From positions 1 through 46,310 of the forward strand of contig JAAYVP010000077.1 in assembly GCA_012517115.1 (NCBI GenBank): 46,310 bases of DNA, in the 5' to 3' direction. Source of the stretch: Brooklawnia sp. Its GTDB lineage: Bacteria; Actinomycetota; Actinomycetes; Propionibacteriales; Propionibacteriaceae. A program made the translations under genes and the position numbers. Of the stretch, positions 4,246 to 45,093 are shown one piece after another (the first letter of the stretch is position 1; the number at the start of each line of letters is the position of its first letter). The notes beneath the pieces were generated by a model, which had not been told where the DNA came from, made no database searches, and saw only the letters and a program-made list of their open reading frames with translations.

Positions 4246-4246
4246 G

Positions 4247-4832: not shown

Positions 4833-4836
4833 ATGC

Positions 4837-4850: not shown

Positions 4851-4865
4851 CTGCGCGCAGACAAG

Positions 4866-4871: not shown

Positions 4872-4915
4872 TGGGAAGTCGCATCAGACAGAGGCGACGC
4901 TTGAAAGGCGGAAAG

Positions 4916-6130: not shown

Positions 6131-6142
6131 TCGGCTCGGTGA

Positions 6143-10741: not shown

Positions 10742-10745
10742 TGCC

Positions 10746-13892: not shown

Positions 13893-13928
13893 GGTGGGCT
13901 TCCTTGTCGACTCGGGTGCAGTGGCAGG

Positions 13929-14201
13929 TCACAGGTATCGGTAGATGTCGTCGGGGGTGAGGCCGAGCTTCACCATCATGGTCTGCACGTGGTAGATCAG
14001 CTGACTCATCTCTTCGGCGGCCGCCTCAGCGCTCTCGTACTCGGACGCCATCCAGACCTCAGCGGCCTCTTCGACGATCTTCTTGCCGATCGTGTGCACG
14101 CCAGCGTCCAGACGCGTCAACGTGCCCGAACCCTCGGGCCGAGTGGCGGCGATCTCGCTCAGCTGAGCGTACAACTCCTCGAATGACTTGCTCACGGCCA
14201 T
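13929..14201 (-). CDS. hisE: Phosphoribosyl-ATP pyrophosphatase
   Basis: Hydrolyses phosphoribosyl-ATP to phosphoribosyl-AMP, the second step of histidine synthesis. The 90-residue all-alpha MazG-like fold has the metal-binding pattern [14 protein letters not shown] (EExxE type) and a later Glu/His cluster [11 protein letters not shown]. The family-like sequence starts at ATG 14201. An alternative GTG at 14195 lies 7 nt after a TACGCT box (14208-14203), which is the leaderless spacing seen elsewhere in this window. The pair hisE-hisG is a usual actinobacterial arrangement. Confidence 0.93.
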
Positions 14202-14255
14202 CAGCGTAGTGCAGCCCAGGCGACGCCTGGGTCCATGGGTCACCGCCTGAACGGC

Positions 14256-25397: not shown

Positions 25398-25483
25398 GTC
25401 CGGGTGGCGGAATTGGTAGACGCGCTAGCTTGAGGTGCTAGTGCCCGTTATAGGGCGTGGAGGTTCAAGTCCTCTCTCGGACA
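25398..25483 (+). tRNA. tRNA-Leu (GAG anticodon)
   Basis: Class II tRNA of 86 nt. The acceptor arms GTCCGGG and CTCGGAC pair fully with one G-T. The D loop is GCGGAATTGGTAGACGC, and the anticodon stem CTAGC/GCTAG encloses the loop TTGAGGT with anticodon GAG. A long variable arm (TGCCC...GGGCG) and the T loop TTCAAGT complete it. CCA is not encoded. Its 3' end is the likely integration site of the element that follows. Confidence 0.95.
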
Positions 25484-25484
25484 C
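25461..25484 (+). other. Predicted attachment site (attL) in the tRNA-Leu 3' end
   Basis: A tyrosine integrase gene starts 200 bp downstream and foreign-looking cargo follows, which is the usual arrangement for tRNA-targeting elements. The matching direct repeat (attR) is not in this window, so the core limits are inferred. Confidence 0.45.
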
Positions 25485-25684: not shown

Positions 25685-26851
25685 ATGAAACGACGCAGCT
25701 TTGGACACACACCCAGGACGCGGAACGGCCGCTACCAAGCACGCTATACCGGTCCGGACGGCGTCATGCACACCGCCGGCATGACCTTCGCGGTCAAGAT
25801 GGACGCCGAGGGCTGGCTGGCCAACGAGGACCGGCTGATCGCCCGCGGCGAGTGGACACCGCCTGCCCAACGCCGAGCAGAGCAGGCCGCCCAGGCGGTG
25901 GCGAGCGTCCTCACCCTGCGGGTCTACGCGGACAGGGTGTTGGACGAACGCTCAACCCGCAACAGAAACCCGCTTCGGCCAAGCACCCGCGATTTCTACG
26001 ACAAGTGCCTGCGCCTGGTGATCCTGCCCGTCCTGGGTGATGTGCCGGTCGCCGCACTCACCCCGGCGATGATCCGGCAATGGCACTCGGACTTGAACCC
26101 GGCCACCCCGACCCAGAACGGCAACGCCTACAACCTGCTGTCCTCGATCCTCAAGGATGCCGTTGACGAAGGCCTGCTCGGCTCAAATCCTTGCCGGTTG
26201 AAGGGCGCGGGGAAACCCGCCCCGGCCCGCGCCGGGGTCGCCCTCACACTGGAGCAACTGGCCGCCTACCTCGCCGCGCTGCCCGAACGTTACAAGTTGC
26301 TGTTGTCGATCGCCGCGCTCGGGGCGCTGCGCTCCGGCGAAGCCAGGGCGTTGCGGCGCTGCGACGTGGATCTGAAGACGGGTGTCGTCCATGTCCGGCA
26401 AGGCGTCACCAGGGTCCGGGAGGGCAAGGGTTGGCGTTGGCACATCGGCCCGCCCAAAACAAGCGCCGGTGTTCGTGACGTGTATCTGCCTACCGCGCTG
26501 CTGCCAGACCTGCGCGTCTTGCTCGCCGCGTTGCCGGCAGGCCGTAGCGATGAGTTGCTGTTCAAAGCGACCAACGGTGACCCGTTGAACGGATCGGTGA
26601 TCCGCGACGCCCACAAGACCGCGCTGGCCGCGGCCGGGCTGCCGGCGGACATCCAGCTCCACGACCTGCGCCGCACCGCCCTGACGTTGGCGTCCGAAGG
26701 TGGCGCCACCACCGCCGAGCTGCAGCGCATGGCCGGCCACACCACCCCCAATATGGCCATGCACTACCAACGCCCGACCCTGGTCCGCGACCAGGCCCGC
26801 GCCGAACGGCTTGGCGCCGCACTCGCGGGCCACCTGACAGGCAGCGAATAG
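25685..26851 (+). CDS. Tyrosine-type site-specific integrase
   Basis: A 388-residue phage-type integrase. The N-terminal arm-binding domain (about 1-60, RNGRYQARYTGPDG) precedes a SAM-like core-binding domain (about 75-170, RPSTRDFYDKCLRLVILP) and the catalytic domain. Catalytic residues are R216 (ALRSGEARAL), H326 and R329 (LHDLRRTALTLA), H352 (AGHTTPNM) and the nucleophile Y361 (HYQRP). It points away from the tRNA. Neighbouring xis, defence genes and relaxase indicate it mobilises this element. Confidence 0.95.
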   Translation: MKRRSFGHTPRTRNGRYQARYTGPDGVMHTAGMTFAVKMDAEGWLANEDRLIARGEWTPPAQRRAEQAAQAVASVLTLRVYADRVLDERSTRNRNPLRPSTRDFYDKCLRLVILPVLGDVPVAALTPAMIRQWHSDLNPATPTQNGNAYNLLSSILKDAVDEGLLGSNPCRLKGAGKPAPARAGVALTLEQLAAYLAALPERYKLLLSIAALGALRSGEARALRRCDVDLKTGVVHVRQGVTRVREGKGWRWHIGPPKTSAGVRDVYLPTALLPDLRVLLAALPAGRSDELLFKATNGDPLNGSVIRDAHKTALAAAGLPADIQLHDLRRTALTLASEGGATTAELQRMAGHTTPNMAMHYQRPTLVRDQARAERLGAALAGHLTGSE

Positions 26852-26920: not shown

Positions 26921-27181
26921 ATGGGCATGAGTACCCAACAGCGAACAGCCGCCCCCGGTCGAGGGTTGCGCCTGGAATCCCTGCAAGACGCAGCCGACCG
27001 TCTCGGTGTCAGCGTCTCCACCATCCGACGCCTCATCGCCGACGGCAAGCTCACTGGCTACCGCCTCGGCAACCGCATCCTGCGCGTCAACCCCGAAGAA
27101 GTCGACCAAACCCTTCAAACCACCACCGCTTGGGCGAGGCCGGCCAAGCGCGGTGGCAAGCAGCCTGCCTGGGTCGTGTGA
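26921..27181 (+). CDS. Excisionase-like HTH protein
   Basis: An 86-residue small DNA-binding protein with a MerR/excisionase-type winged helix-turn-helix: SLQDAADRLGVSVSTIRRLI, then DGKLTGYRLGNRILRVNPEEV. It probably sets the direction of recombination with the integrase, which lies 69 bp upstream on the same strand. The start could be ATG 26921 or ATG 26927. Confidence 0.85.
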   Translation: MGMSTQQRTAAPGRGLRLESLQDAADRLGVSVSTIRRLIADGKLTGYRLGNRILRVNPEEVDQTLQTTTAWARPAKRGGKQPAWVV

Positions 27182-27284: not shown

Positions 27285-30053
27285 TCAGGTCAAGGGTCGG
27301 ACGCGGCAGAGCGCCGCAACGTCGCACGTCGCGCATTGGGAGCACCACGTTTCATACCGAGGCAGATTGTTCTCACGCAGCGCCTTGCCTGCGCCCAGAA
27401 CCCGCGCTCGCACTGCGTCCAGCAGCGGGGCCTCGACTTCTTCGCGGGTTGACTTGCCCCGCTCGTCCAGGTTCAGGACCTCAATCAGGTCGGGTTGCTG
27501 CCCGACCAGCTCTTGATACCCGAGGGCGTAGACGTGCAGCTGATCGCGAGTCACCTCCTCGGGCTGTGCTCGCTCGGTGGACTTGAAGTCGACAACGGCT
27601 ACTTCGTCAGTTTCGAGGCGGCGGATGAGATCGATCCGGCCATCGACGACGACACCGTCGCCAAGGTGGACCTGGATCTGCTTCTCGGAGTGCACCGTGT
27701 TGGGGAGTTCGGCCCCGTGGGCGGCGAAGTATCGCTCGATTGCCTGTTGGGCTGATCTGACCAGTTGCTCGCGCAGGGCCGGGTAGGCGTAGGGCGTGTG
27801 GAGGTGTCGGTCGACGAGGTCTGCGGCGTCGGCCTCGGTCATGAGGTGGCCGTCGATCGCTCGTTTGTGCACCTCTGCGAGCGCGTCGTGCAGGCCCTTC
27901 CCATAGCCGAGCGCCTCGTGGATGGGCGGATTGAAGCCGTAGAGGAACCGGATCTTGAACTGGTAGGGGCAGTCGAACAGGTACTTCAGTTCGGAGAACG
28001 TCAGGCTGACCTGAGGCGTCTCGCGGCGCGGCGTCGGGCTGAGCCGGGTGGTGTCCGACGCCAAGGGTGTGGCTCGCGTCGAGACGTACTGGTTGCCCGT
28101 GGCTAGATGCATGAACGGCGATTGCGCCTTGTAGAGCCGATTGCCTCCCGGCGAGTAGCTGAGGGCGAGGTACTTCTGGGCGCGGGTGACCGCGACATAG
28201 AACAGGCGCGTCTCATCCTCGACGGTGCCTCGGTAGCGGTCGGGCGACGGCACCGCCTCCTGCGGAACGACATGGAAGACCCCGAGCCCACCCTGTCGCT
28301 TGGACGGGAAGCGGTTCTTCCGCAAGCAGGGCACGAACACGGCCGGGTACTGCATTCCCTTTGCCTGGTGGACTGTCGAGATCACCACGGCGTCGGGTTG
28401 GGCGTAGCCCACGTCGGCGTCCGATTCGGCGTAGTAGTCGGGCGCCTGGTGCTCGAGCCATTCCCGGAACGCCCGGTACTTGGCGGTGGGTGCGGACGAG
28501 AAGTGGATCTCCTCGAAGTCGGAGATCACTTGGCTGAACTTGCCGAGCTGGTAGAACACGAGTTCGGCTCGCTCGGGAGCACCGGGGATGGTGTCCTCCC
28601 GGACCTCGAGTGCTTCCAGCAACTCGAGGTACAGGCGCTGGATGTTGTAGACGCCCCACCTGCTGCCATCCTTGACTGCGCGCGCGCCTTCAAGGACGGC
28701 GAACGCGTCCGCCCAGTTGCGGCCGGGTGGGACCAGCTCTGCGTCCTCCCAAGCCTGCTGCACCGTCTGGGTGCCGACCTCGCCCACCAAGTAGGCGAAC
28801 ACTGTTACGACGGCCTGGATCTCGGGCGAGTCGAACAGCCGGTTCAGGCCCTTGACCACGTACGGGATGTGTCTGCGGCGGAGTTCCTCGACGAGCGGGT
28901 CTGCGTCGCGGGCGACCGACCGGTAAAGCACAGCGAAGTCCGACCAGGTCAGGCCACGTGGGGCGGCGTCGGGGCTGTCTGTAAACGAGACGCCACGCAA
29001 GGATTCCATGCGGTCGCACATCCACCTGGCCTCGGCCTCAGGGGTGTCGAACGTGAGCGCCAGTAGGTCGCCGCGTTCCCAACCCTGGTGTCCGGCTGCT
29101 GCCATTTCTTTGGGCAGCCTGGCCTCCGCCGGAAGGCTCTCAGCGATGGTGCGACCCAGGTCGACCACTCCTCGGCTGGACCGGAAGTTGTCGGAAAGGA
29201 ACACCTTCTCCACGTCCGGGTACCTATCGGCGAAAGTCAGGATGTTGCCCACGTCGCTGCCGCGCCACTGGTAGATGGTCTGGTCGTCGTCACCCACGAT
29301 GCAGACGTTCGCCCCGTGAGCGGCCAGGGCTCGGATCAGGCGCTCCTGCAGGGGGTTCACGTCCTGGTACTCGTCCACAACGAGGTACTTCAGATCACCG
29401 TGCACGTGCTCGCGGATCATGTCAGCCAGCGGGTCGTCCTCGGACTCCAGGAGTTCGACCGCCAACTGGATCATCGCGGTGTAGTCGAAGTAGGACTTGT
29501 TGGCGAGCAGCCTGATGTACTGGTCGAACGACTCCCACACACCGGCAGGCACCGCGTCACCGACAATGTCGTCCTCGCGAAGCAACGAAAGGACGGACTG
29601 ATACAGCTTGGAGTCGGTAAATCGTCGAAGGTGCGACACCTTGGGCGACGTCACCGGGCACGTGGTTAGTCCCGATTCTTTACTGTGCCGATCGATGAAG
29701 AGCCGGTTCGTGACGTCCGTGAGGACGCGGTAACGGAACGTCTGCGGCACGTGGCGTTGCAGGATGTCCAGGCAGTACGCGTGCATCGTCCCGATGAACA
29801 TCTCGGCCAGCCCGAGTGTCGAGCCGCCTGCGTCCTGGATGCGGCGCAGCACCCGATCCTTCAGCTCGGCTGCAGCCTTGTCCGTGAACGTGAACGCCAC
29901 GATGTTGGCGGGTGTCACGCCCGGGACTCGCAGCAACTCTGCAATCCGCCTGGACACCACGTCCGTCTTGCCCGAGCCTGCGCAGGCGATGATCTGCAGG
30001 TTCCGATCGACGCACTCGATCGCCGCTTGCTGACTGGGGGTGTAGGCGATCAA
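27285..30053 (-). CDS. UvrD/PcrA-type helicase fused to Cys-cluster PD-(D/E)XK nuclease
   Basis: A 922-residue superfamily 1 helicase-nuclease. Walker A is ACAGSGKT (Lys29), Walker B LVVDEYQD (Asp227, Glu228), with later helicase motifs VHQAKGMQYPAVFVPC and ETRLFYVAVTRAQKYLAL. The C-terminal nuclease (about 680-922) opens with SELKYLFDCPYQFK (Cys695). It has D808 and D822-F-K824 as the metal and catalytic residues, and ends with C904, C907, C910 and C916. The four-Cys pattern matches the AddB/Cas4-type iron-sulfur nuclease. Unlike AddAB it is a single protein. TTG 30053 with GGAGGAGC before it is the likely start. It lies 40 bp after the HigA/ImmA gene, suggesting one operon. A role in defence or in element DNA processing is inferred. 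Confidence 0.88.
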   Translation of the reverse strand: MIAYTPSQQAAIECVDRNLQIIACAGSGKTDVVSRRIAELLRVPGVTPANIVAFTFTDKAAAELKDRVLRRIQDAGGSTLGLAEMFIGTMHAYCLDILQRHVPQTFRYRVLTDVTNRLFIDRHSKESGLTTCPVTSPKVSHLRRFTDSKLYQSVLSLLREDDIVGDAVPAGVWESFDQYIRLLANKSYFDYTAMIQLAVELLESEDDPLADMIREHVHGDLKYLVVDEYQDVNPLQERLIRALAAHGANVCIVGDDDQTIYQWRGSDVGNILTFADRYPDVEKVFLSDNFRSSRGVVDLGRTIAESLPAEARLPKEMAAAGHQGWERGDLLALTFDTPEAEARWMCDRMESLRGVSFTDSPDAAPRGLTWSDFAVLYRSVARDADPLVEELRRRHIPYVVKGLNRLFDSPEIQAVVTVFAYLVGEVGTQTVQQAWEDAELVPPGRNWADAFAVLEGARAVKDGSRWGVYNIQRLYLELLEALEVREDTIPGAPERAELVFYQLGKFSQVISDFEEIHFSSAPTAKYRAFREWLEHQAPDYYAESDADVGYAQPDAVVISTVHQAKGMQYPAVFVPCLRKNRFPSKRQGGLGVFHVVPQEAVPSPDRYRGTVEDETRLFYVAVTRAQKYLALSYSPGGNRLYKAQSPFMHLATGNQYVSTRATPLASDTTRLSPTPRRETPQVSLTFSELKYLFDCPYQFKIRFLYGFNPPIHEALGYGKGLHDALAEVHKRAIDGHLMTEADAADLVDRHLHTPYAYPALREQLVRSAQQAIERYFAAHGAELPNTVHSEKQIQVHLGDGVVVDGRIDLIRRLETDEVAVVDFKSTERAQPEEVTRDQLHVYALGYQELVGQQPDLIEVLNLDERGKSTREEVEAPLLDAVRARVLGAGKALRENNLPRYETWCSQCATCDVAALCRVRPLT

Positions 30054-30093
30054 AACGCTCCTCCTGCCGGTCGGGACCGACCCTGTTCAACCT

Positions 30094-31188
30094 TCACTTG
30101 CTCACCCATCCCCTGAGTACGTCATCGGCGTTCGGCAGGCCCTTGGCCAGGGTGGTCTTCCAGGGCACCACGCCGTGATGTTGCAGGTTACCCACGACGA
30201 ACGCCACCGGGACACCAAGCCGCGCAGCCTTGTCCGCGACCGAATGCGCGGACACCGCACCCGAGATGCGCGCTGGCCCACCAAACAACCACGCTTCGGC
30301 TCGGCGATTGGCCTCATCCTCCCGCGCCTTGTTGGCCTCCATCGCTTCCTCGTCCGCCATGTCGTCCAGCGCGACACCGTCGTCGACGTGTCCGGCCACG
30401 ACGTGGCCGCATTCGTGCATGATGGCGAAGAACAGCTTGTCGAACCGCTTTCCTCGTCCCGAGACAGCCACCACAGGGTTCTTGCCCAGCATGAAGGCGG
30501 CGCCATCGATCTTCCCGCCGGGGAAGTGCTCGACGAAGACCAGATGGACACCCACCTGCGCGAACCGCTCGGGAAGCGACGCGAGGTCGCTCGGTTCGGA
30601 GACCTCGCGAGCCAACCGCTCCACGAGGCGCTCGAAACCGGCCCGGTCGTAGTCAGGAAGCATCTGTGTTCGGGCCTGTCGTTGTGCCGCCCACAGCCAG
30701 CCACGCTGAATCAGACTCAGATCATCACCATGGTTGGACCGCTTCGCCGCCATCCCGAAGTGCGGGGAGTCGTCGCGGTGGACCATATTGAAGTCACGTC
30801 TGACCTCGTCCAGCAGGTCAGCGGGGGACTCGTGAGCGCCGATGATCCCCCGCTTCTCCAACAGTGCGAGGGGAATGATCGAAGCAATCTGGGCCCTTGT
30901 GGCCACCCGGGATGCGGTGTCCTGATGCCCGACGTCCTGGCTCAGCCGCCACAGTTGATACTTGGCCTGCAGGCCGAGCCAGGTGGACGCCTCCGAGCCG
31001 AGGGCTGCGGCGATCTGCGCGGCAGACTCGGCGGTCAACTCCTTCTTGGCATTGACGATCTCGGACACGAACTGCACCGGGCGTCCGATGATCTCCGCGA
31101 AGTCGGCCTGGCTCCAGCCACGCTCCTCCAATTCGACCGCCAAATGCTCACCCGGCGGGAAGACCTCGGCCGGCGTCCGATCAGTCAT
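30094..31188 (-). CDS. HigA-like HTH protein fused to ImmA/IrrE metalloprotease
   Basis: A 364-residue protein. The N-terminal Xre-type HTH (about 12-75, GWSQADFAEIIGRPVQFVSEIVN) is HigA/VapI-like. The C-terminal half (about 190-330) is a COG2856/ImmA-type domain with the zinc site HECGH (258-262). In ICEBs1 and phages such proteases cleave a repressor on DNA damage; fused HigA-ImmA forms are found as antitoxins or regulators. It starts 18 bp after the HigB-like toxin gene with ribosome site AGGAGGAGAG. I infer that it binds the toxin and the palindrome in the promoter at 31545-31554. Confidence 0.88.
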   Translation of the reverse strand: MTDRTPAEVFPPGEHLAVELEERGWSQADFAEIIGRPVQFVSEIVNAKKELTAESAAQIAAALGSEASTWLGLQAKYQLWRLSQDVGHQDTASRVATRAQIASIIPLALLEKRGIIGAHESPADLLDEVRRDFNMVHRDDSPHFGMAAKRSNHGDDLSLIQRGWLWAAQRQARTQMLPDYDRAGFERLVERLAREVSEPSDLASLPERFAQVGVHLVFVEHFPGGKIDGAAFMLGKNPVVAVSGRGKRFDKLFFAIMHECGHVVAGHVDDGVALDDMADEEAMEANKAREDEANRRAEAWLFGGPARISGAVSAHSVADKAARLGVPVAFVVGNLQHHGVVPWKTTLAKGLPNADDVLRGWVSK

Positions 31189-31206
31189 CTTGCTCTCCTC
31201 CTCTCA

Positions 31207-31500
31207 TCAGTGGCAGTCGACAACCTCGATCACCACGACCACCCGCCCTTGGGTGTCGGTCCTAAAGTGAACGATCAATCGATCGTCCCCACGTAGCCTC
31301 AGTGACAACTTTCGCGTGCCCTTCACTTGTTCGAGCCTGAGCGACTTGAAGGCTCTCAGCTCCCGGTCGTCGGTCACCTCGTACAGCAGCCCAACGACCT
31401 TGCGATATGCCCGCACGAGCTCGGCGCACATGCGGGGGTGAGGAGTGCCTGCGACCCAGTACAGCGCCTCCAGGTGAGGATCCTCGAACTCGACGATCAC
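31207..31500 (-). CDS. HigB/RelE-type toxin homologue
   Basis: A 97-residue protein of the RelE/HigB mRNA-interferase fold. The core pattern is RELRAFKSLRLEQVKGTRKLSLRLRGDDRLIVHF followed by a beta-hairpin VVVVIEVVDCH. Members cleave mRNA on the ribosome; catalysis here is not proven. It is first in the toxin-antitoxin order typical of higBA, with a GTG start and SD-like AGGGGTG. Confidence 0.82.
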   Translation of the reverse strand: MIVEFEDPHLEALYWVAGTPHPRMCAELVRAYRKVVGLLYEVTDDRELRAFKSLRLEQVKGTRKLSLRLRGDDRLIVHFRTDTQGRVVVVIEVVDCH

Positions 31501-31528
31501 TCAACGACACCCCTTCACCCTTGATGTG

Positions 31529-31560
31529 AATATGGTATGTTGTTTCCCATGGGAGTGCAA
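31529..31560. promoter_or_regulatory. Divergent promoter with palindromic operator (higB-like / 52-aa gene)
   Basis: For the toxin operon, minus-strand TTGCAC (31560-31555), a 17-nt spacer and TACCAT (31537-31532). A perfect 10-bp palindrome TCCCATGGGA (31545-31554) occupies the spacer, an ideal place for HigA-type repression. For the plus-strand small gene, TATGTT (31536-31541) is a possible -10. This 30-bp stretch is clearly more AT-rich than its surroundings. Confidence 0.6.
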
Positions 31561-31599
31561 GCCCCTGGCTTGCCCAATCACGAGGGGAGGTGAGAGACG

Positions 31600-31758
31600 A
31601 TGGCGAAGAACACTGGAAGAGGGCACCGCATTGGTGCCGTGCGTGGTCGCAGCGAGTTCAAGCATCCCAACGGGACGTACGTGAAGCGCGACACGACGAC
31701 CGGTCGCTTCATGAACGTGAGCGACCACCCGCACAAGGGCGTCCGCGACGAGAAGTGA
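31600..31758 (+). CDS. 52-residue basic protein of unknown function
   Basis: ATG 31600 follows a very strong ribosome site (GGGGAGGTGAGAG) and the frame ends at TGA 31758. The product begins MAKNTGRGHRIGAVRGRSEF and continues with the motif YVKRDTTTGRFMN before a charged tail ending VRDEK. It is basic and Gly/Arg/Lys-rich and may bind nucleic acid. I recall similar short proteins beside actinobacterial restriction cassettes, but no function is known to me. A perfect terminator follows. It is divergent from the toxin operon and convergent with mod. Confidence 0.8.
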   Translation: MAKNTGRGHRIGAVRGRSEFKHPNGTYVKRDTTTGRFMNVSDHPHKGVRDEK

Positions 31759-31762
31759 CAAC

Positions 31763-31803
31763 GACTGCGTCCCTGGGCGCCGGTAACACCCAGGGACGCA
31801 GTC
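31763..31803. terminator. Perfect 15-bp hairpin terminator
   Basis: GACTGCGTCCCTGGG (31763-31777) and CCCAGGGACGCAGTC (31789-31803) are perfectly complementary around an 11-nt loop. It starts 5 nt after the 52-aa stop and precedes the end of mod, so it can stop transcripts from both sides. Confidence 0.8.
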
Positions 31804-31845
31804 CCACAACACTCTCACGGCGCAGGCTCTCCCGCGACCCGCATG

Positions 31846-34551
31846 TCAGGGCTCGAACACTTTCATGACCTCGTCGCCGTAGTCGTTGATGACCTTGACC
31901 GCAATCCGGCCCCCCGATGGCCTGGCGAAGGGACGCGAGACCGTCGAGTTGAGCGATGCCCACGCATCCTGGTCAATCTCGGCCTTCAGGGCCGTCTTTA
32001 GTCGCTTGTACGGGTCACCCCCGCCGGTGAAGTAGCAATGCCGGACGAAGAACGACTCCTCGTTGTAGTCGGTGTCGATCATCCAAAGCGCAATGCGACC
32101 CGTGTCGTGCGAGCGCACCTCGCCGGTGGTCGGGTCGTACACGTCCACACCGTGCAGCTCCACGACAACCTGATCCTTGTCGGTGGTGCGCACGTCGATG
32201 TCAGGCTCCCCGAAGACTGTGAACAGGTTGCCGGCACCGGTCTTCTTGAGTTCCTCACCCATGAGCAGGTCGACGTTCATCCTTACCAACAGCACCTTGA
32301 CCCTGCCAAGTTGGCGCTCGCCCGCCACTTGGGCGAAGCCGGCGTCGCCGGTCTCAACCGTCACGCCGTCCTCGAGCGTGACGCCGGTGGCTTGGGGATC
32401 GAAGGCGAAGGCCAACACGCACAGCAGGTCGATGTCTCGGGCCCGGATGGCCTCCTTCGCTGCGGCCTTGATAAACCCGGGCGAGACTGTGCCGTACTGC
32501 GGACCGATCGCCACCCCGACCCGCAAGGACGCCTCGCCGCTGACCCCCTCACCCACCGCCTGCACATACTCCCCCGCATACGGATCAAGGGACGCGAACG
32601 TGATCCGCTCCGCCGTCCTGCCATTCTGGACGCCTGCCCGGCGCAGGTTCTCCAGAATCGTCTGCTCGAATGTCGGCGCCTCGCCGGCCGTGGCCGCCGC
32701 CACCTCGGATGCCGGCTGCTTCTCGTCACCTCCCGCGAACGCCAGCGACCGGTGCGGGGATAGGCTCTCGACGGTGAACGGGCCGGTCACCCGGACAACG
32801 CCCTTGTCCTCGTAGGGGCGGTCGTACAGCAACTCGAAGTCGGCATGCTTCTTGATGGCAGCATCGATCTGCTCGCGGGTCATGCCCTCAACGATGTCGG
32901 GGTTGTTCGCGATGGACTTCAGCGTGATGTGCTGCACGCGCTCGTAGACGAACCCGTGTCGGATGTCATCGGACGTCGGCGCGGGCGGCAGCAGCGAGCC
33001 GGACGCCTCGGCCTCCTTCGCCCGCCCCTTCACGGAGTCAGCGAGCAGGTAGAACGGAAACCTGGCTCCCATCAGACGCTGGCGCGCGAGGGCGAGGGCG
33101 ACCCGGGACGTGTCGATCGTGATCCAGCGCCGCCCCCACTGCTCGGCGACATGGGCTGTCGTTCCCGATCCGCAGGTTGGATCGAGCACAAGATCGCCCG
33201 GATCGGTGGACATCAACATGCAACGCTCGATCACCTTGGAGTGAGTCTGGACAATGTAGATCTTCGGATCACCAAATCCTGACGTGACAGTGTCTTCCCA
33301 GAGGTTTGTGTACGGGAATGCCGGGAAGTCATCGAGGTAGCGCACATATCGGAGCGTATTCCCGATGCCCATGAGGCGATCCGCGTTCAGCAGCCGCTCC
33401 ATCCCCTCTACACTTGTCTTCCACACACCCTTGCCTGGGACGTAAGTCTTCCCTGCAACAGAGACTGGGAAGATGGTCTTTTCAACGCCGCTCTGCGACG
33501 TCATGGCTGTAGGCTGAAACACTCTCGTGCCGGTAGGCGGGCCCTGCGAAGCCGGGAAGGACTTGCGCGTACCGCTCTGGTCCTCGGCCCAAGTGTATTG
33601 GCCGGCACCCGCGCCACCGAGTTCCTTCGGTCGGTATAGCTGGCGGTACTTGACCGCGCGCATGTCCTTTGCGTACCAGACGACATAATCGGTAACGCCC
33701 GCAATTACGTTGGTGCCGCCCGCCAAACTCCCCGCTCCGCTCGTGGTCTTGTAGGCGATCAGTGAGCAGAAACCTTCGACCCCAAAGACTTCGTCCATGA
33801 GTGACCTGACGAGATGAACATTCTCGTCCCCGATCTGGACGAAGCAGCTTCCGGACTCAGTGAGCAGTTCACGCGCAGCCACGAGGCGGTCGCGCATGTA
33901 GGAGAGGTAGGAGTGGATACCGAGTTCCCAGGTGTCGCGGAAGGCCTTGATCTGTTCGGCCTCCCGGGCGGCGTCTTCGATCTTGCCGTCCTTGACGTCG
34001 CGCTTCCGGGCAGACACCTGCCAGTTGGAGCCGAACTTGATGCCGTAGGGGGGATCGATGTAGACCATCTGGACCTTGCCGCGGAGGTCCTCACGTTCGG
34101 CGAGGCTGCTCATCACCTGCAGTGAGTCGCCGAGGATCATCCGGTTCGACCAGTTCGCCTGGTGGCGGTAGAACTCGACGGCGTCCAGTTCGTTGAGGCC
34201 ATCGAACGTTTCGAACAGGGTCAGTTCGGGCTCGTCCGCAGCTTCCTTGGTGGTGCGGCGCAGGTTCTCCACGAGCACGCGAGGGTCGATCTTCTCCTGG
34301 ATGTAGATCGGCGGAGCGTCCACGACGAGGGGCCTGTCGTCTGTCAGGTCGTCCTTGGGATACTTGCCGCGCCAGATCAGTTGGGGATCGAGGGTTGGGT
34401 CGCGGTCGTAGGCGACCTGGCGCATGGCTTCGACCTCGGGTGTGACGAAGTCCTGGGCGGCGTCCGCTGTGGGGATGTTCGAGCGCTTGTCGTCGTGGAC
34501 GATGCTCTCGATCGGGGTCGGTCCGTTGGGTGCGGCAGGCCTACGAGCCAC
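31846..34551 (-). CDS. Type III-like DNA adenine methyltransferase (Mod)
   Basis: A 901-residue beta-class DNA methyltransferase. Motif IV DPPY is at 166-169 (VYIDPPYGIKFG) and the SAM-binding motif I is at about 456-465 (LDPTCGSGTTA, Cys460). This order is typical of type III Mod subunits, which modify adenine N6. The region between them holds the target-recognition part. An N-terminal 140-residue extension and a long C-terminal part (about 560-901) exceed the classic Mod. The GTG start overlaps the res stop by 11 nt, so the two are coupled. Recognition sequence is unknown. Confidence 0.92.
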   Translation of the reverse strand: MARRPAAPNGPTPIESIVHDDKRSNIPTADAAQDFVTPEVEAMRQVAYDRDPTLDPQLIWRGKYPKDDLTDDRPLVVDAPPIYIQEKIDPRVLVENLRRTTKEAADEPELTLFETFDGLNELDAVEFYRHQANWSNRMILGDSLQVMSSLAEREDLRGKVQMVYIDPPYGIKFGSNWQVSARKRDVKDGKIEDAAREAEQIKAFRDTWELGIHSYLSYMRDRLVAARELLTESGSCFVQIGDENVHLVRSLMDEVFGVEGFCSLIAYKTTSGAGSLAGGTNVIAGVTDYVVWYAKDMRAVKYRQLYRPKELGGAGAGQYTWAEDQSGTRKSFPASQGPPTGTRVFQPTAMTSQSGVEKTIFPVSVAGKTYVPGKGVWKTSVEGMERLLNADRLMGIGNTLRYVRYLDDFPAFPYTNLWEDTVTSGFGDPKIYIVQTHSKVIERCMLMSTDPGDLVLDPTCGSGTTAHVAEQWGRRWITIDTSRVALALARQRLMGARFPFYLLADSVKGRAKEAEASGSLLPPAPTSDDIRHGFVYERVQHITLKSIANNPDIVEGMTREQIDAAIKKHADFELLYDRPYEDKGVVRVTGPFTVESLSPHRSLAFAGGDEKQPASEVAAATAGEAPTFEQTILENLRRAGVQNGRTAERITFASLDPYAGEYVQAVGEGVSGEASLRVGVAIGPQYGTVSPGFIKAAAKEAIRARDIDLLCVLAFAFDPQATGVTLEDGVTVETGDAGFAQVAGERQLGRVKVLLVRMNVDLLMGEELKKTGAGNLFTVFGEPDIDVRTTDKDQVVVELHGVDVYDPTTGEVRSHDTGRIALWMIDTDYNEESFFVRHCYFTGGGDPYKRLKTALKAEIDQDAWASLNSTVSRPFARPSGGRIAVKVINDYGDEVMKVFEP

Positions 34552-37500
34552 GGTTCACCTCGGCGTAGTCGAGAAGGTCGGGATCGCCGATGATGGGTCC
34601 GTCGGCGTAGAGGGAGTCGATGGCTTCGCGGAGCCGATCGAGTGCGGTGGTGATGTCGGTTAACTCGACGTAGCCCCAGCGGCCGAAGCCGCCGTGGTTG
34701 TTGACACCGGCGCACCAGGAGTGGCGGGCGGTTTCTGCCTTGGCCTGGACCGAGCCGGGCGCGTGGGCGGACTTCATGCCGCCGGACACTTCGACGATCA
34801 GCGTTCGGTCGACGTCGCCGTCGCGGCGCTTGAGCCGCAGGAGGAAGTCGGGCACGTAGGCGTGGGTGCGCCCCTTGTGAACGTACGGGATGGTGAACCC
34901 GAGGTGATCGTTCTTGACGTATGCGGTCACTGGCAACAAGCCTGACTCGCACAGGTCTGCGACCTTCTCCTCCCATGTGTTGCCGCCCGGGCCGTCCAGC
35001 ACGACATGGCTGACTTCAGACAGGGTCGTGGTTAGGTTGGGCTTACGGGTGACAAACGCCACCGACCCGGTGCTGCCGATGGGGTCGGCCCGCCGCAGGA
35101 TGACCCGCATCCGCTTGCGGCGATCGTCCTGCATGCTGGAGACCGCTTGATAGATCGCTTCGGCTGCGTCCGCCTCGTACTCTGCGTACCTGACAATGGT
35201 GCCGACGTCGAACCCGTCGTCAAGGTCAACGCACTGATCCAGCCACTCCTTGCAGATGTCCACCAGCCGCGGGAACAACCAGGGGCGCTCGTCGCTACCG
35301 ATCACGTATTGGTGGCGCAACAGCCGGCGTGCCAGCCGGAACGCGACGGCCTGTGGCCGCAGCGGACCGGATTCCTCCTCAATACGTTCGACCTCACCAA
35401 CGATCGGGGCGTTCTCAGACCAGGTCGGCACCTTGGACCTTCCAACTCGGTAGCGCGTTGCGCTGGCGGCGTCCAGGTAGAGGTACTCGTCTGGGATCTC
35501 CAGGCGATACGCCTCCACGTTGGGGAAGGTGATGCGCAGGTGCTCACGGCCTGGCACAGTGCGGACCTCGGTGGCCGGTGGGGCCGGCTGAGGGTCGGTG
35601 GGCGGCTTGTCGGAGGGAATGAAAGCGAATGGGACGCCATACACCGACGCGTACTCGGCGTCGAAACGTCCCTGGTCGTTGATGGCGTAGGAGCGGCGGC
35701 GCAGGCCGCGCCCAACGACCTGCTCGCACAGCAGTTGGGAGCGGAAGGCGCGGATGCCGAGGATGTGGGTGACGGTGTTGGCGTCCCACCCCTCGGTGAG
35801 CATGGCGACGCTGACCACGCAGCGGATGGGCTCGCCGAGGCGTCCAGGCTTGCCGACGGTGTTCATCACCTCGCGCAACAGATCTTCATCGGTGATCGCG
35901 TCGACGTCTGCGCCGGGGTTGCGGCGACGGTAGTCGCTCTTGAACAACTCGATCTCGCTGGCGGCCGCAGCCTTGAAGTCGGCCTTGATCGCTTCACCCG
36001 ATTCGAGCTGGGCGGAGTCGATCAAGATCGTGTGCGGTCGGTCCATCATGCGGTCGCCCTGCACGTTGTTGAACAGCGGCAGCTTGCCTGGGACCGTGAC
36101 CGGGCCGTTGGGGCCCTCGACCTGGGTGCCGGCGATCCACTGCCACACCAACCGGGACACCGAGGTGTTGGGGCAGACCACAATGAAGACGGGCGGGGAC
36201 TCGCCGAGCTGTGCGCGGTGCTGCTCCCACTGGACGAAGGCGCGCTCGTAGCTGCGATAGAGGCTTCGGAGGGCACCCTCGAGTTGCGGTGGGATCAACC
36301 ACTGAGTGACGTCGATCTTGTCGAGCTCCCGCTTCGCGAGCGCCCGGCTGGCGCCGATGTGGTCCCAAAGGTTCAGGTAGACGACCTGGTCGTCAGCGGC
36401 GTCATCGTCAACGGGGATGCGCGGCACCTTGACTATGCCGGACTCGATGGCGTCCATGAGGGAGAAGTCGCTGACGGTCCAGGGGAAGATGAAGCCTTCG
36501 TTGTAGCCAGACCCGCGCAGGTAGTAGGGCGTCGCGGACATGTCGTAGATCGCCTTGATGCCGACCTTGTTCGCAACGGCCAGCAAGCCCTTGTACCAGA
36601 CGCGGGCCTCCTCGTTCGCGGCCTTCGCCTCGCCATCCGCCTCGGCGCCGTCGACCTCGACGACACGCTGGGGACGGTCGGCATAGCAGTGGTGTGCCTC
36701 ATCGTTGAACACCACGATCTCAGTTTGCTGCCGCCCGGTGCTGACCCCCCAGCCGCGAAGCACGCGTGACACGACGGCGTCGTCGGTCTCCTTGAAGGGG
36801 TCGACCGACTTGCCAGCCAGCAGGATGTTCTTGGTGAGACGTGCCACGCCCTTGATCTCCTTCGCATCGCGCTTCAGGAAGACGTGGTAGTTGGTGATGA
36901 TGATCTGCGCCTGACCCAGATCGGCCCTGAGCTGCGACGGCACAAGGTCGCGCAGGTCGTAGTAGTTGCCCGGCTCGGACGGATCGAGCACGCGGAGCCG
37001 GTCGCGGATCGTTATCCCGGGAGTGACGACCAGGAACCGCTTGGCGAAGCGCTTGTCGCTGGGTGTTGCCACCTTGTTGAGGGTGTTCCAGGCGATCAAC
37101 ATCGCCATCACGACGGTCTTGCCCGACCCTGTGGCCATCTTGAGGGCAACGCGCGGAAGGCCATCGTTGTGCTCGGCATTTGCGGCGTCCAGTCGCTCGC
37201 GCCAGTCGGCGACCTTGATGGTGGGCCTGCTGGTAGCGCTCAGTTGCTCGGCCACCTGGACGCGGCGCCCAGCAACCTCAGCGAGGTAGATCGCAGTCTC
37301 GGCGGCCTCGCGCTGGCAGAACAGAACGCGGTTCTCCCGCTGCGGGTCTGCCCAATGCAGGAGCAACTTGCGGGTGGTCGGGGTCGCACCCTCGTAGCCG
37401 CGCATGCGCCAAACGTCGACAGCACTGCGGATGTCGTTGATCAGCGTGTTCTTCTCGACCCGCTCATGGGTGAGGTCAAAGTCAAGCGTCTCCTGGACCC

Positions 37501-37684
37501 CAGCGGCCGCCTTCCTGCCGCGCTTCTTGGTCTGAGGCACCGGGATGAACGACTCACTCGGACGCCGCCCAGGAAGCACAGTACCGGTGGGTCCCTTGGG
37601 ACCGATCTCGAAATAGCGTGACGGCGGATCGAACGGTCCGTTCAGTACCGGATCTGCGAGCGCATCTTCCACTCTTGTTCCCAT
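34541..37684 (-). CDS. Type III-like restriction endonuclease subunit (Res)
   Basis: A 1047-residue superfamily 2 ATPase-nuclease. Walker A is MATGSGKTVVMAML (Lys189), motif II DEAH starts at Asp328 (FNDEAHHCY), motif VI VVGRGLRRRSY. The C-terminal nuclease has Asp946 (VPDF) and Glu965 (IVEVSGGMK), where the classical ExK lysine is replaced by Ser967, as I recall for this Res subfamily, with Lys971 nearby. It works with Mod to cut unmodified DNA. ATG 37684 is chosen because family-like sequence (DPVLNGPFDPPSRYFEIGPKG) starts just after it; the frame extends to 37882 with no such features. Confidence 0.9.
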   Translation of the reverse strand: MGTRVEDALADPVLNGPFDPPSRYFEIGPKGPTGTVLPGRRPSESFIPVPQTKKRGRKAAAGVQETLDFDLTHERVEKNTLINDIRSAVDVWRMRGYEGATPTTRKLLLHWADPQRENRVLFCQREAAETAIYLAEVAGRRVQVAEQLSATSRPTIKVADWRERLDAANAEHNDGLPRVALKMATGSGKTVVMAMLIAWNTLNKVATPSDKRFAKRFLVVTPGITIRDRLRVLDPSEPGNYYDLRDLVPSQLRADLGQAQIIITNYHVFLKRDAKEIKGVARLTKNILLAGKSVDPFKETDDAVVSRVLRGWGVSTGRQQTEIVVFNDEAHHCYADRPQRVVEVDGAEADGEAKAANEEARVWYKGLLAVANKVGIKAIYDMSATPYYLRGSGYNEGFIFPWTVSDFSLMDAIESGIVKVPRIPVDDDAADDQVVYLNLWDHIGASRALAKRELDKIDVTQWLIPPQLEGALRSLYRSYERAFVQWEQHRAQLGESPPVFIVVCPNTSVSRLVWQWIAGTQVEGPNGPVTVPGKLPLFNNVQGDRMMDRPHTILIDSAQLESGEAIKADFKAAAASEIELFKSDYRRRNPGADVDAITDEDLLREVMNTVGKPGRLGEPIRCVVSVAMLTEGWDANTVTHILGIRAFRSQLLCEQVVGRGLRRRSYAINDQGRFDAEYASVYGVPFAFIPSDKPPTDPQPAPPATEVRTVPGREHLRITFPNVEAYRLEIPDEYLYLDAASATRYRVGRSKVPTWSENAPIVGEVERIEEESGPLRPQAVAFRLARRLLRHQYVIGSDERPWLFPRLVDICKEWLDQCVDLDDGFDVGTIVRYAEYEADAAEAIYQAVSSMQDDRRKRMRVILRRADPIGSTGSVAFVTRKPNLTTTLSEVSHVVLDGPGGNTWEEKVADLCESGLLPVTAYVKNDHLGFTIPYVHKGRTHAYVPDFLLRLKRRDGDVDRTLIVEVSGGMKSAHAPGSVQAKAETARHSWCAGVNNHGGFGRWGYVELTDITTALDRLREAIDSLYADGPIIGDPDLLDYAEVNRGS

Positions 37685-37727
37685 CAGCCCGAGTTCGCGG
37701 CGCCAGTTGCTGCGACTCCTCCCGCTC

Positions 37728-37733
37728 ACCCTA
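37728..37733 (-). promoter_or_regulatory. Candidate -10 box for res-mod
   Basis: TAGGGT on the minus strand, 43 nt before the res ATG; GGGAGGAG lies between but is about 30 nt from the start, too far to be its ribosome site. The -35 is not clear. Confidence 0.35.
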
Positions 37734-37799
37734 GCCCGCCCCGCAGTCGAAGTCTGGGCACGACCCTTGTCACGCCACAAAGAGCAGCCCTTTCGGCGT

Positions 37800-38138
37800 C
37801 TACTCGGGTAGGTATGTCGTTGTCTTGCCCGGCAAAGCCAGGCCGCCCCCGTCTGCAGCCCGCCGCAGTCGCGCGATCTCACGCGCTGTCAGTCCGACCG
37901 CACACCATTCCTGTACTTCGCGGACGCCGAGCCCGTGCTGGTCGATCATGGCGTTGAGGGCGCAGCCGGCGGCGGCTTCGGCCTCGGCGAGGGCGCGACG
38001 GCCGGCTGCCAGGGATGCGCCGACCTGGATGGCGAGTTCTTCGAGTTGGGTTTCGCGTTCACGTCGCAGGCGGACGCGTTCGGCGTGGGCTTGTTGGATC
38101 GCCTTTCGGGCGGCGATCTTGTCCGGGTTACTGGCCAT
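37800..38138 (-). CDS. Coiled-coil / HTH-like protein of unknown function
   Basis: A 112-residue protein. The N-terminal half is a charged helix rich in Ala, Arg and Glu (IQQAHAERVRLRRERETQ), probably coiled coil. The C-terminal part LGVREVQEWCAVGLTAREIA looks like a helix-turn-helix. GGAG lies 7 nt before the ATG. It is divergent from the zinc-ribbon and relaxase genes, where mobilization accessory proteins are often found, so a role at the transfer origin is possible. I do not recognise the family. Confidence 0.65.
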   Translation of the reverse strand: MASNPDKIAARKAIQQAHAERVRLRRERETQLEELAIQVGASLAAGRRALAEAEAAAGCALNAMIDQHGLGVREVQEWCAVGLTAREIARLRRAADGGGLALPGKTTTYLPE

Positions 38139-38738: not shown

Positions 38739-38807
38739 CCACCCCGTCCCAGTCCAGACCGACCCGGTGGGCGTCCATGACGCCAGCCGTGGTGGCTTGG
38801 GTTGGGT

Positions 38808-41800
38808 ATGACGGCGTCGTTGCACAAGCTGAGCGCGGGCAACGGCTATGACTATCTGACCCGTCAGGTGGCGGTGCAGGACGCGACGGAACGTGGCTAC
38901 ACCGGGTTGGCGTCGTACTACACCGAGAAGGGTGAGACCCCGGGGGTTTGGGTCGGTTCGGGCTGCGCGGACATCCGTGAGGGGTTCGCAGGATCGGTGG
39001 TTTCCCAGGAGCAGATGCAAGCCCTGTTCGGCACCGGACACAACCCGATCGGGGCGGAGTTGGTCGCCCAACTGGGCCCGGACGCGCCTCCTGACCTGGT
39101 CGCGGCAGCGATGCGGTTGGGTGCGCCGTTCCGCGTCGGTGGCGAGGTTTCGGCGTTCCGGATCGAGGTGGCGCGATGCGTCGGCGAGTTGAACACCGGC
39201 CGCGGACGGCCGCGTGGTGCCGAGGTTTCGGTGGATGACCGGGCCCGGATCCGCACCCAGGTGGCGTCCGAGTTGTTCACCGCCGAGTTCGGCCGCCCGC
39301 CGGACGGGCCGCGGGAGTTGGCCGGTGCGGTCGCCCGCTACTCGCGGACCGGGTCGTCCACGGTCGCGGGTTTCGATCTGACGTTCTCCCCGCCGAAGAG
39401 TGTCAGCTCGTTGTGGGCGTTGGCCGATCCGAAGGTCGCCGCCGGCATCGAGCGCTCCCATCAGCAGGCTGTCAGCGCCGCCCTGGCCTACGTCGAGCAG
39501 CACCTGTTGTATGCCCGGGAAGGCACCCGGGGTATCCGGCAGGTCGATGTGACGGGCATGGTCGCCGCGGCGTTCACCCACCGCGACACGAGGGCGGGTG
39601 ACCCCGATCTGCACACCCATGCGGCGGTGGCGAACAAGGTCCGCACCGCCAACACCGGGAAGTGGTTGTCGATCGACGCGCGGGTGTTGTACCGGGGCAT
39701 GGTGTCGGTTTCGGAGACGTACAACACCACCCTGATGAAGCTGCTGGAGCGCCAGGGGTTCGCGTTCGCCGACCGCCCCCAAACCGTCCGGGACGCCGGG
39801 AAGCGACCGGTGCGCGAACTCGTCGGCGTCCCGGCGGAGTTGAACCAGCGGTGGTCGAGTCGCCGGGTCGACATCGACGGCCGCCACCAGCAGTTGGTGG
39901 CCGCCTTCCAGCGTGAGCATCATCGTCCGCCGTCGACGGTGGAGTCGATCCGGCTCGCCCAGCAGGCCACCCTGGAGACCCGCGACGCCAAACACGAACC
40001 CCGGTCGCTGGCCGAGCAACGGGCGGTGTGGCACCGCCAGGCGGTCGAGGTGCTCGGCGGGGAACGTGCGTTGCGGCGCATGCTGAACGACGCCACCGCC
40101 CCTGCCCGTAGCCGGTTGGTGCATCCGGACGGGGCGTGGTTCGAACAGACGGCCGACCGGATCGTTGCAACCATGGCGGGGCGAGCGGCGACGTGGCAGG
40201 ACTGCCACGTGCGCGCGGAGGCGCAACGGATGGTCCGCTACACCGATCTGCCGCCTGACCAGGTATCGGCTGCGGTTGAGCGGCTGGTGGCTGCCAGCCT
40301 GGGCCGCAGCGTCCGCCTGACGCGACGCGAAACCGGTGAGGAGGTGCCGAGGCCCCTGCGAAGGGCCGACGGCACGAGCGTCTACACCGTCGCCGGTTCG
40401 ACCTTGTTCACGAGCGCCGCGGTGGTCGCCGCCGAGCGTCATCTGGTCGATCTGGCCGGCCGCCGCGACGGCACCCCGGTGCCGGCCGAGCACGTCACCG
40501 CAGCTCTGTCTGCGAGCGCGGCGGACGGGGTGCCGCTGAACCCGGGGCAGGCAGACCTGGTGCGCCAGATGTCCCAGACCGGCGCGCGGCTGCAGCTGGC
40601 GTTGGCGCCGGCCGGTGCCGGGAAGACGACCGCGATGCGGGTACTCGCCGACGCCTGGACTGCCGACGGACGCGCCGTGATCGGGCTGGCCCCGTCGGCC
40701 GCGGCCGCCGCCCAGCTGCGGGAACACACCCACGCCAGCACCGACACGCTGGCGAAGCTGGCGTGGGGCATCACCCATCACGACCTGCCCGACTGGGCCG
40801 AAAACGTCCGCCCGAACAGTCTGGTGATCATCGACGAGGCCGGCATGGCCGACACCCTGACCCTGGACGCGGTGGTGTCGTGGGCGGTCGAACAAGGCGC
40901 CAGCGTCCGGCTGATCGGTGACGACCAGCAACTCGCCGCGGTCGGCGCCGGCGGGGTGCTGCGCGACATCCAGACCAGCCAGGGCGCCAGCGTGTTGACC
41001 GAACTGATGCGGTTCACAGACCCGGGCGAGGCCGCGGCTTCGTTGGCGTTGCGGGACGGCGACGTGTCCGGACTGGGGTTCTACCTGGACACCGGCCGCG
41101 TCCATGTGGGCGACCTGGCGACGATGACCGACGAAGCGTTCCAGGCGTGGCAGTCCGACACCGCGGCCGGGCGCGCTTCGATCATGCTTGCCCCCACCCG
41201 CGACCTGGTCGGCGAGCTGAACCAACGAGCCCGAACTGACCGCCTCGCGCGCGCCGGCGACCTGGACGGACGGGAGGTGCTGCTCGCCGACGGGAACCGG
41301 GCCAGTGTCGGGGACACGGTCATCACCCGCGTCAACGACCGCAGACTGCGGATCTCACGCACCGACTGGGTGAAGAACGGGGACCTCTGGACCGTCCGCG
41401 ACATCACCCCGGACGGCGCCCTGGTGGCGGCCCACCGGGGCAGCGGACGGCTCGTTCGGCTGCCCCGCGACTACGTCACCACCTCGACCGAACTCGGCTA
41501 CGCATGCACGATCCACTCCGCGCAAGGGGTGTCGGTCGACACCATGCACGGCGTCTGCACGGGCACCGAATCGCGGCAGCAGTTCTATACGATGATGACC
41601 CGCGGCCGGCAGGCCAACCACGTCTGGCTCGAAGTCGTCCCCGACCCCGACCCCGGCGTCCTCACCAGACCAGAAGGCCTCAACCCACCAACACCGACAG
41701 ACACCCTCGAGGCCATCCTGCGCCGAGACCAGACACAGACCTCCGCATCCAGCTTCCTGCGCGCACAATCCGACCCGCACCTGCTGCTGGGCCAGGCCAC

Positions 41801-44451: not shown

Positions 44452-45093
44452 ATGTTGACCGTCGTCGCCGTCCTGGCCGGCACTTTGGTCGGCTGGGTCC
44501 TCACACGCCTGTTGGCCAGCCTTGGCTACCGGCGTCCAGAGGAAGCCGAGCGGCCGGCCCCGGCGAACCGGTGGTGGCTCATCCCCGCTGTCGGCGCCGC
44601 CTGGGGCTGGATCGTTGTCACCCTGGCGAAACAGCCCGAGGCGGTGATCGTGTTGTGGCTGCCACTCACTGCCGCACTCGGCTGGATTGCTGCGGTCGAT
44701 CTCGATGTCCAACGCATCCCCAACCGCGCCCTCCGCCCCACCGCCATCTGGGTCGGCACATGCCTGATGGCGCTCGCGATCACCGACCACACCACTGCCG
44801 CACTCGTGCATGCCGCGATCGCTGCCGCAGGGAGTCTGGCCGGGTTCACGATCCTCCATCTCGCCAGCCCGGGCTCCCTCGGCTTCGGAGATGTCAAGCT
44901 GGCTACCATCCTCGGCGCCGCAGTCGGTGCCGTCTCGCTGCCCGCGCTGCTCATCGCCCTGCTGTTCGCCTGCGTCCTTGCTCTCAGCTGGGCAGGCGCC
45001 ACCCGCACGAGACAGCTGGCGTTCGGACCTTGGCTGGCTGCCGGTGCCATCCTCGGAGTCGGGTTACCCGGGGTCCAGAACGCTTTGGGATGA
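44452..45093 (+). CDS. Prepilin peptidase, single-domain (A24 family)
   Basis: A 213-residue membrane aspartyl protease with about six hydrophobic segments. The two catalytic aspartates are visible: Asp83 in AAVDLDVQRIPN and Asp147 in the GxGD motif GFGDVKL. The N-terminal methyltransferase domain with its CxxC pairs is absent, as in TadV/CpaA-like enzymes. A ribosome site AAGGGAGA precedes ATG 44452, 28 bp after the relaxase stop. It would process prepilin-like substrates; no pilin gene lies in the window. Confidence 0.85.
   Translation: MLTVVAVLAGTLVGWVLTRLLASLGYRRPEEAERPAPANRWWLIPAVGAAWGWIVVTLAKQPEAVIVLWLPLTAALGWIAAVDLDVQRIPNRALRPTAIWVGTCLMALAITDHTTAALVHAAIAAAGSLAGFTILHLASPGSLGFGDVKLATILGAAVGAVSLPALLIALLFACVLALSWAGATRTRQLAFGPWLAAGAILGVGLPGVQNALG

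Follow-up and report, generated by a model that had tools for sequence, protein, structure and literature searches.

The locus described here raises the question of what kind of system a short run of toxin, protease and helicase genes belongs to. At positions 27285–31500 of a 46,310-nucleotide stretch of Brooklawnia sp. DNA (assembly GCA_012517115.1, contig JAAYVP010000077.1, forward strand; this whole stretch is called the window), a sequence-only reading had described a three-gene unit of HigB-like toxin, HigA/ImmA protease and helicase-nuclease, and had proposed it as a defence module in its own right. We hold, with moderate confidence, that an integrated element here carries a restriction system of type III-like kind, together with a helicase that degrades DNA, and that the abortive-infection module embedded in this system is exchangeable; a defence role for the locus is likely. 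The three genes are real, all lie on the minus strand and are separated by gaps of 18 and 40 base pairs (bp), just as had been claimed, but the interval chosen misses Mod and Res at 31846–37882, the usual partners of the helicase. Along the minus strand the order is res, mod, a 345-bp gap, toxin, HigA-ImmA and helicase-nuclease:

34541..37882, minus strand: Res, BPTD_3080-family type III-like restriction endonuclease (NF046055, 1090.4 bits, cut-off 800; ResIII)
31846..34551, minus strand: Mod, type III-like N6/N4 DNA methyltransferase, 901 amino acids (aa) (PF01555, 4e-27; PADLOC MTase_III PDLC03632, 893.6 bits)
31501..31845: gap between mod and the toxin gene, measured at 345 bp, first part of the cargo slot
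31207..31500, minus strand: HigB-like toxin, 97 aa (HigB fold; the relative at locus L023 passes the HigB Pfam cut-off)
30094..31188, minus strand: HigA-type helix-turn-helix (HTH) fused to an ImmA/IrrE-type metalloprotease, 364 aa (TIGR02607, PADLOC PD-Lambda-2_B, HExxH)
27285..30053, minus strand: UvrD helicase fused to a Cas4/AddB-like PDDEXK nuclease with iron-sulphur (Fe-S) type cysteines, 922 aa (Pfam, residue conservation)

Predicted products of the locus

The adjacent genes for a Mod methyltransferase and a Res ATPase-nuclease, which overlap by 11 bp, agree with the make-up of a type III restriction-modification system. Res is 1113 aa when counted from the first start, and its family match begins at residue 77; a literature search found no paper on BPTD_3080. 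The gap in front of the toxin gene probably holds the promoter of the HigB/HigA-ImmA pair. A consensus scan gave no sigma-70-like site against 1.0 expected, a kind of scan that may miss actinobacterial promoters, and a consensus scan for minus-strand terminators also gave none. Purine-rich stretches precede the starts of the toxin, HigA-ImmA and helicase-nuclease genes.

The call of a helicase and a Cas4/AddB-like nuclease on a single chain was right: the protein matches PF00580 (3.3e-55), PF13361 (1.3e-29) and PF12705 (2.5e-21), and with UvrD and PF12705 on one chain in a Mod/Res neighbourhood it agrees with the UvrD-Cas4-like fusion. Among the residues that had been singled out, K29, D227, D808, D822, K824 and C695 are identical in 99–100% of 78 aligned helicases and C907, C910 and C916 are kept in 91–92%, but C904 is kept in only 44%. 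The PDDEXK residues are thus D808, D822 and K824, and the cysteine set of Fe-S type is C695, C907, C910 and C916. Since four more UvrD-family matches are present elsewhere in the genome, the window protein is an extra helicase. Identity with AddAB/RecBCD was rejected, the equivalog scores being far under their cut-offs (AddA, 156.8 bits against 707.65).

The domain calls made for the other two proteins, a HigB-like toxin and a HigA/ImmA protease, also proved correct. The AlphaFold2 model of the toxin (predicted local distance difference test, pLDDT, 92.2) superposes on Proteus vulgaris HigB over 90 residues (Z 12.8, root-mean-square deviation (rmsd) 1.9, template-modelling (TM) score 0.70–0.77), and as modelled the toxin has the HigB fold. 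Its Pfam HigB-like score is 12.9, under the cut-off of 27, and the L023 relative exceeds that cut-off at 31.3. A toxin gene ahead of HigA, the HigB fold and the HigA HTH together correspond to HigBA. HigA-ImmA matches TIGR02607 (50.6 bits, cut-off 47.7) and PADLOC PD-Lambda-2_B (2.5e-26). Its ImmA domain has a Pfam score of 18, under the cut-off of 22; the domain call is made because of the PADLOC match, the conserved HExxH and relatives that do exceed the Pfam cut-off. The HExxH lies at H258-E-C-G-H262 (key residues H258, E259 and H262) and is kept in all 47 relatives checked, 45 of which have a toxin-sized open reading frame (ORF) just upstream; these counts omit four of 46 viral loci (L140, L145, L146 and L159) judged by eye to be duplicates. 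Structure searches with the HigA-ImmA model (pLDDT 85.9) returned a match to HigA over about residues 4–104 and a weak Foldseek match to the CBASS protease CapP (7t5t; E 4.8e-3, TM 0.25, rmsd 7.6), and hardly probed the middle region. Residues 94–192, between HTH and protease, have a weak phmmer match to the HEPN toxin 8xdj (E 0.011).

Linkage of the genes and the slot between mod and helicase

Viewed from the helicase, the steady companions are the restriction genes. A genome scan gave 146 relatives, the best 80 loci of which were used, many of them close kin and some on short contigs. Within the fetched flanks, 59 of the 80 have a Mod-like gene: 55 were found by hidden Markov model (HMM), each an ORF from one of two families, although in L030 it is a remnant, and among the 25 without Mod by HMM tblastn added four (L071, L074, L084 and L088), where the contig ends within the ORF. 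Res is also present in 51 of the 55. HigA-ImmA was found by tblastn and HMM in only three of the 80 (L023, L066 and L093). In the window's order (391 genomes) the helicase (E <= 1e-120) occurs in four genomes and HigA-ImmA (E <= 1e-40) in six, and the only overlap is the window's own genome; Mod and Res are present in each of the three further helicase genomes, and the five other HigA-ImmA loci show no helicase. One of these helicase genomes, G395, has the same TacAT genes as L101 and is probably the same genome. The trio is therefore not a conserved unit, and the lack of linkage in relatives that the sequence-only reading had named as counting against it is largely what the order shows. HigA-ImmA may still be linked to the locus as a whole, because it recurs together with helicase and Mod in L023, L066, L093 and L183.

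Wider scans took in the phylum, plasmids and viral contigs. Across 296 genomes of the phylum, HigA-ImmA (E <= 1e-15) is found in eight (seven besides the window's), and the helicase was not found in the fetched stretch of any of those seven. The helicase (E <= 1e-90) occurs in three genomes, the two others having Mod and Res in one case and a Mod fragment in the other. Mod (E <= 1e-80) occurs in 11, ten of them other than the window's. Among 72,556 plasmid records, HigA-ImmA relatives are on 21, for two of which the annotated neighbourhood was inspected, and the helicase (E <= 1e-100) is on two others, with no overlap; there it adjoins restriction systems of MspI type and MvaI/BcnI type. Short helicase-like pieces in L119 (E 4e-9) and L197 (E 7e-17) were not counted as the helicase. 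A first viral scan using a single protein gave no match. Viral contig scans starting from HigA-ImmA gave one contig (L155/L183) with the order helicase-nuclease, sacsin/NOV_C protein, toxin, HigA-ImmA, Mod, Res, its helicase-nuclease being 953 aa, with UvrD and PDDEXK domains, and 25% identical. They also gave L202 (with close relatives L200 and L201), where Res, Mod, toxin and HigA-ImmA are found and the helicase is absent from the fetched stretch.

HigA-ImmA or the pair thus lies directly beside Mod in five locus groups (window/L023, L066, L093, L155/L183 and L202), four of them with the helicase, and in three kinds of arrangement: mod-pair-helicase, helicase-pair-mod and mod-pair. What HigA-ImmA is associated with, rarely but recurrently, is the restriction locus and not the helicase by itself.

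The place occupied by the pair is held by other genes elsewhere. Among the 28 loci in which mod precedes the helicase gene, 20 have no more than 126 bp between the two and eight have 595–3870 bp, and seven of these eight wide gaps hold OLD, SIR2, GmrSD, HigB/HigA-ImmA or TacAT genes. The fillings of the slot, including two more from the window's order, are:

L023: HigB/HigA-ImmA
L022 and L025: OLD-type ATPase
L049: OLD and GmrSD
L085: GmrSD
L030: SIR2, with a Mod remnant only
L101: TacA-GNAT, on the other strand
L040: 595 bp, no clear gene
G622 (window's order): TacA-GNAT modules and a 615-aa ORF of unknown kind
G672 (window's order): DUF1016/YhcG nuclease

At the 23 loci with the order helicase-mod, identified genes lie in between at seven:

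L066: HigB/HigA-ImmA
L093: HigA-ImmA alone, no toxin ORF
L070: DUF4062
L060: AAA and subtilase
L071: helicase with PLD domain
L073: exonuclease
L079: PemK-like toxin

The other 16 have no clear gene there and 219–729 bp of unmatched space, part of it an unmatched Mod start. In a helicase tree of 28 rows, from which L086 was omitted and in which L040 was labelled empty and the ORFs of L049 and L085 were incomplete, the window groups with L101, its sister, which has TacAT, and L023, with HigB/HigA-ImmA, branches next outside, both forks at 100/100; the cargo therefore changes within close kin, and over the whole tree the cargo labels require at least six changes.

Some further observations concern these neighbourhoods. 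The window's own gap contains a small additional ORF, divergent to the toxin gene, of which no copy was found beyond the window's own contig among the loci fetched:

31600..31758, plus strand: PDC-S38 family ORF, 52 aa, a candidate defence gene (PADLOC PDLC05010, 5.3e-20; phrog_12550, 5.3e-18)

In L180 the 615-aa slot ORF (13553–15400) has no Pfam match and adjoins two TacA-GNAT modules, and the helicase there is split over two frames. Directly after Mod in L121 (11307–13373) lies a 688-aa protein with UvrD domains, whose first 100 residues are RelE-like by eye, with no Pfam match; this could be a toxin-helicase fusion in the same place. In L201 (8483–9472) the start of Res and the end of Mod form one fused 329-aa remnant, and the adjoining HigA-ImmA ORF is still open. 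A sacsin/NOV_C protein adjoins the helicase in L183 as in L014, where a lone C-terminal piece of Mod, the sacsin/NOV_C protein and the helicase (2342–10767) adjoin an rpoC-like gene and, by eye, lie upstream of EF-G/EF-Tu-like genes. Other neighbours of the helicase include HsdR (L056, L099), DruA (L068), NurA (L077), an Eco57I-type methylase (L059) and kinases (L055, L056, L062).

The probable integrated element, proposed working and rivals

The locus lies between genes of a mobile element:

25398..25484, plus strand: tRNA-Leu (gag) (ARAGORN)
25685..26851, plus strand: tyrosine integrase (PF00589, 1.3e-16)
26921..27181, plus strand: HTH_17 excisionase-like protein (PF12728, 5.7e-10)
38802..44423, plus strand: TrwC-type relaxase-helicase-primase, 1873 aa (PF08751, 6.9e-81, and others)
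44452–45093: type IV leader peptidase

The tRNA-Leu gene is likely the integration site, and 25398–46310 is probably an integrated mobile element whose right end lies beyond the contig; no second exact copy (at least 13 bp) of the 3' end of the tRNA-Leu is present within the window. With tRNA-Leu, the integrase and the excisionase-like gene to its left and the TrwC-type relaxase to its right, the locus is most likely cargo of this element.

From the gene content, order, folds, linkage and cargo turnover described above we infer the following working, in all its biochemical steps. In this reading an element integrated at tRNA-Leu carries a type III-like res-mod operon to which the UvrD-Cas4-like helicase-nuclease can be added as a third gene, and the slot between mod and the helicase gene takes up defence or toxin-antitoxin genes that can be exchanged for one another, HigB/HigA-ImmA in the present case. 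Mod would mark self DNA and Res would cut unmarked phage DNA. RecBCD degrades DNA fragments after ordinary restriction, and the helicase-nuclease could, in a like manner, load on Res-cut ends and degrade the fragments. Should the phage survive, single-stranded DNA (ssDNA), produced by the replicating phage or by the helicase-nuclease, would activate the ImmA-type protease domain; this trigger is suggested because ssDNA activates PprI, an IrrE-type protease, according to the available part of PMC10904395. The activated pair would then stop growth; it most likely provides a second, abortive layer. A stronger form of the proposal seems to us unlikely: abortive-infection modules would genuinely be exchanged at the mod-helicase junction of type III-like restriction loci, and HigA-ImmA would read ssDNA made by the helicase-nuclease of the same locus, turning failing restriction into suicide.

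Which member of the pair would do the poisoning is less simple than in HigBA, where the rule is that HigB is the poison. The P. vulgaris HigB residues which we take to be catalytic are His54, Lys57, Arg73, Asp90, Tyr91 and His92; at the same columns (alignment A2) the window toxin has E57, K60, R74, D95, C96 and H97, so that two of the six differ. The L023 toxin has the same Glu as the window but retains the Tyr, and the C-termini of 42 distinct relatives read ..YH in 34, HY(E) in five and otherwise in three. Because E57 and C96 replace the usual His and Tyr, the window toxin is possibly altered in function. In PD-lambda-2 the HigA-peptidase is toxic alone and is rescued by the HigB-like protein (PMC9519451, 2022, available part); given this and the altered toxin columns, the poison of the window pair may, by analogy, be HigA-ImmA rather than HigB.

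Several points weigh against the proposal of a restriction system with an embedded abortive module. In the window toxin E57 and C96 stand at the positions of the His and Tyr found in most relatives, and to judge by these residues its RNase activity may be lost. No PD-Lambda-2_C counterpart is among the matches listed for 12 different window ORFs. Mod occurs in ten further genomes of the phylum sample, in several of them on a short contig, and the helicase was found near it in only one; for this reason the helicase is regarded as an optional part. Only one (L155) of 60 HigA-ImmA loci examined shows Mod, Res or helicase, and in a second set of 28, on contigs partly shared with the 60, L183 and L200–L202 do. 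The pair may also serve the mobile element and not defence. This last is the strongest rival, in which the pair is an addiction module that selfishly keeps the integrated element in place and does not work together with the restriction genes, and the slot merely tolerates insertions. Element genes do flank the locus on both sides, HigA-ImmA relatives are on 21 of 72,556 plasmid records and on neither of the two with the helicase, and TacA-GNAT, an addiction-type pair, occupies the slot in L101 and L180. The remaining slot fillers (OLD, GmrSD, SIR2, DUF1016), however, are of defence type and are not toxin-antitoxin pairs, and HigA-ImmA beside Mod in five locus groups argues the same way. We rate this rival as rather unlikely.

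A regulatory role, with HigA-ImmA as a damage-sensitive repressor of the toxin and helicase genes in the style of CapH/CapP or ImmR/ImmA, raising the helicase-nuclease during infection, would account for the HTH fused to an ImmA-type protease, for the helicase being the last gene, 40 bp behind HigA-ImmA, for the weak match to CapP (7t5t) and for the unusual active-site columns of the toxin. We consider it improbable. Against it, 20 of the 28 mod-helicase loci have the helicase at most 126 bp after mod, with no room for a regulator between. Least probable of all is a defence system dedicated to, and made up of, these three genes, in which the protease senses and the helicase acts as an effector coupled to it. 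The common strand and short gaps fit this, the same trio is present in L023, and in L066, L093 (which lacks the toxin ORF) and L183 too HigA-ImmA has a helicase-nuclease nearby, but Mod is present too in all four of these loci, the pair of L202 stands behind Res-Mod in a fetched stretch that has no helicase, and HigA-ImmA is in so few helicase loci (3/80) and in the order overlaps with the helicase only in the window's genome.

The reading that we prefer, a restriction system with an embedded abortive module, places the HigB/HigA-ImmA pairs and the UvrD-Cas4 fusion, neither of which is well understood, in a context. It also makes it possible to ask directly whether ssDNA is the means by which restriction passes control to a suicide module within the same locus. 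The sister loci that carry HigB/HigA-ImmA and TacAT at the same place are a ready natural comparison.

Comparison with known systems

Each part has already been published by itself: a helicase-nuclease with Mod/Res, the pairing of a HigB with a HigA-peptidase, and the embedding of a toxin pair within a restriction locus. The literature search, among the papers it covered, found no account of their combination or of the mod-helicase slot. For the UvrD-Cas4-like fusion, the available part of PMC5704561 (2017) gives type III Mod/Res as the commonest context and Dcm as the second, and also reports WYL/HTH regulators and Schlafen-like ATPases nearby. The window agrees with this in having UvrD and PF12705 in one protein beside Mod/Res, and the Dcm context is met on the two plasmids; it differs in that no HigB/HigA-ImmA or mod-helicase cargo slot is mentioned in that part of the paper.

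PD-lambda-2 resembles the window pair in its HigB-like first gene and in its second gene, a HigA HTH fused to an ImmA/IrrE peptidase, and it defends, its third gene being required (PMC9519451, available part). The second component is present in the window by its PD-Lambda-2_B match and the HigB-like first component by fold, the toxin having no PADLOC model match. Membership was not assigned, the P4-antitoxin-like third component not being found among the matches listed for the 12 window ORFs; the window pair is instead embedded in a restriction locus. The text of the RelE/ParE survey PMC11980606, as far as it was available, contains no ImmA, UvrD or helicase.

Embedding as such has precedents. 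Guilt-by-embedding is reportedly the subject of a 2024 preprint by Payne et al. This preprint is cited in the available parts of PMC12255303 and PMC12988326. In the former (2025, available part) a DarTG2 pair lies between hsdS and hsdR of a type I system, and, as in the window, the place that a toxin-antitoxin pair takes up within a restriction locus is occupied by different genes in other genomes; the window differs in its type III-like locus with a helicase-nuclease, its toxin pair and its cargo set.

The last comparison is with Gabija, which consists of the OLD nuclease GajA and the UvrD helicase GajB. The best PADLOC score of the window helicase is with a GajB model, and OLD-type genes lie beside the helicase or in the slot in L022, L025 and L049, whereas the window has no OLD gene among the proteins scanned and its helicase carries its own nuclease domain. 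Membership was rejected, since the GajA-GajB adjacency fails, with no OLD/TOPRIM match among the neighbouring window proteins scanned. In L118 (7166–10338) an AAA/OLD-like ATPase and a UvrD-like helicase, a Gabija-like pair, lie right after Res-Mod.

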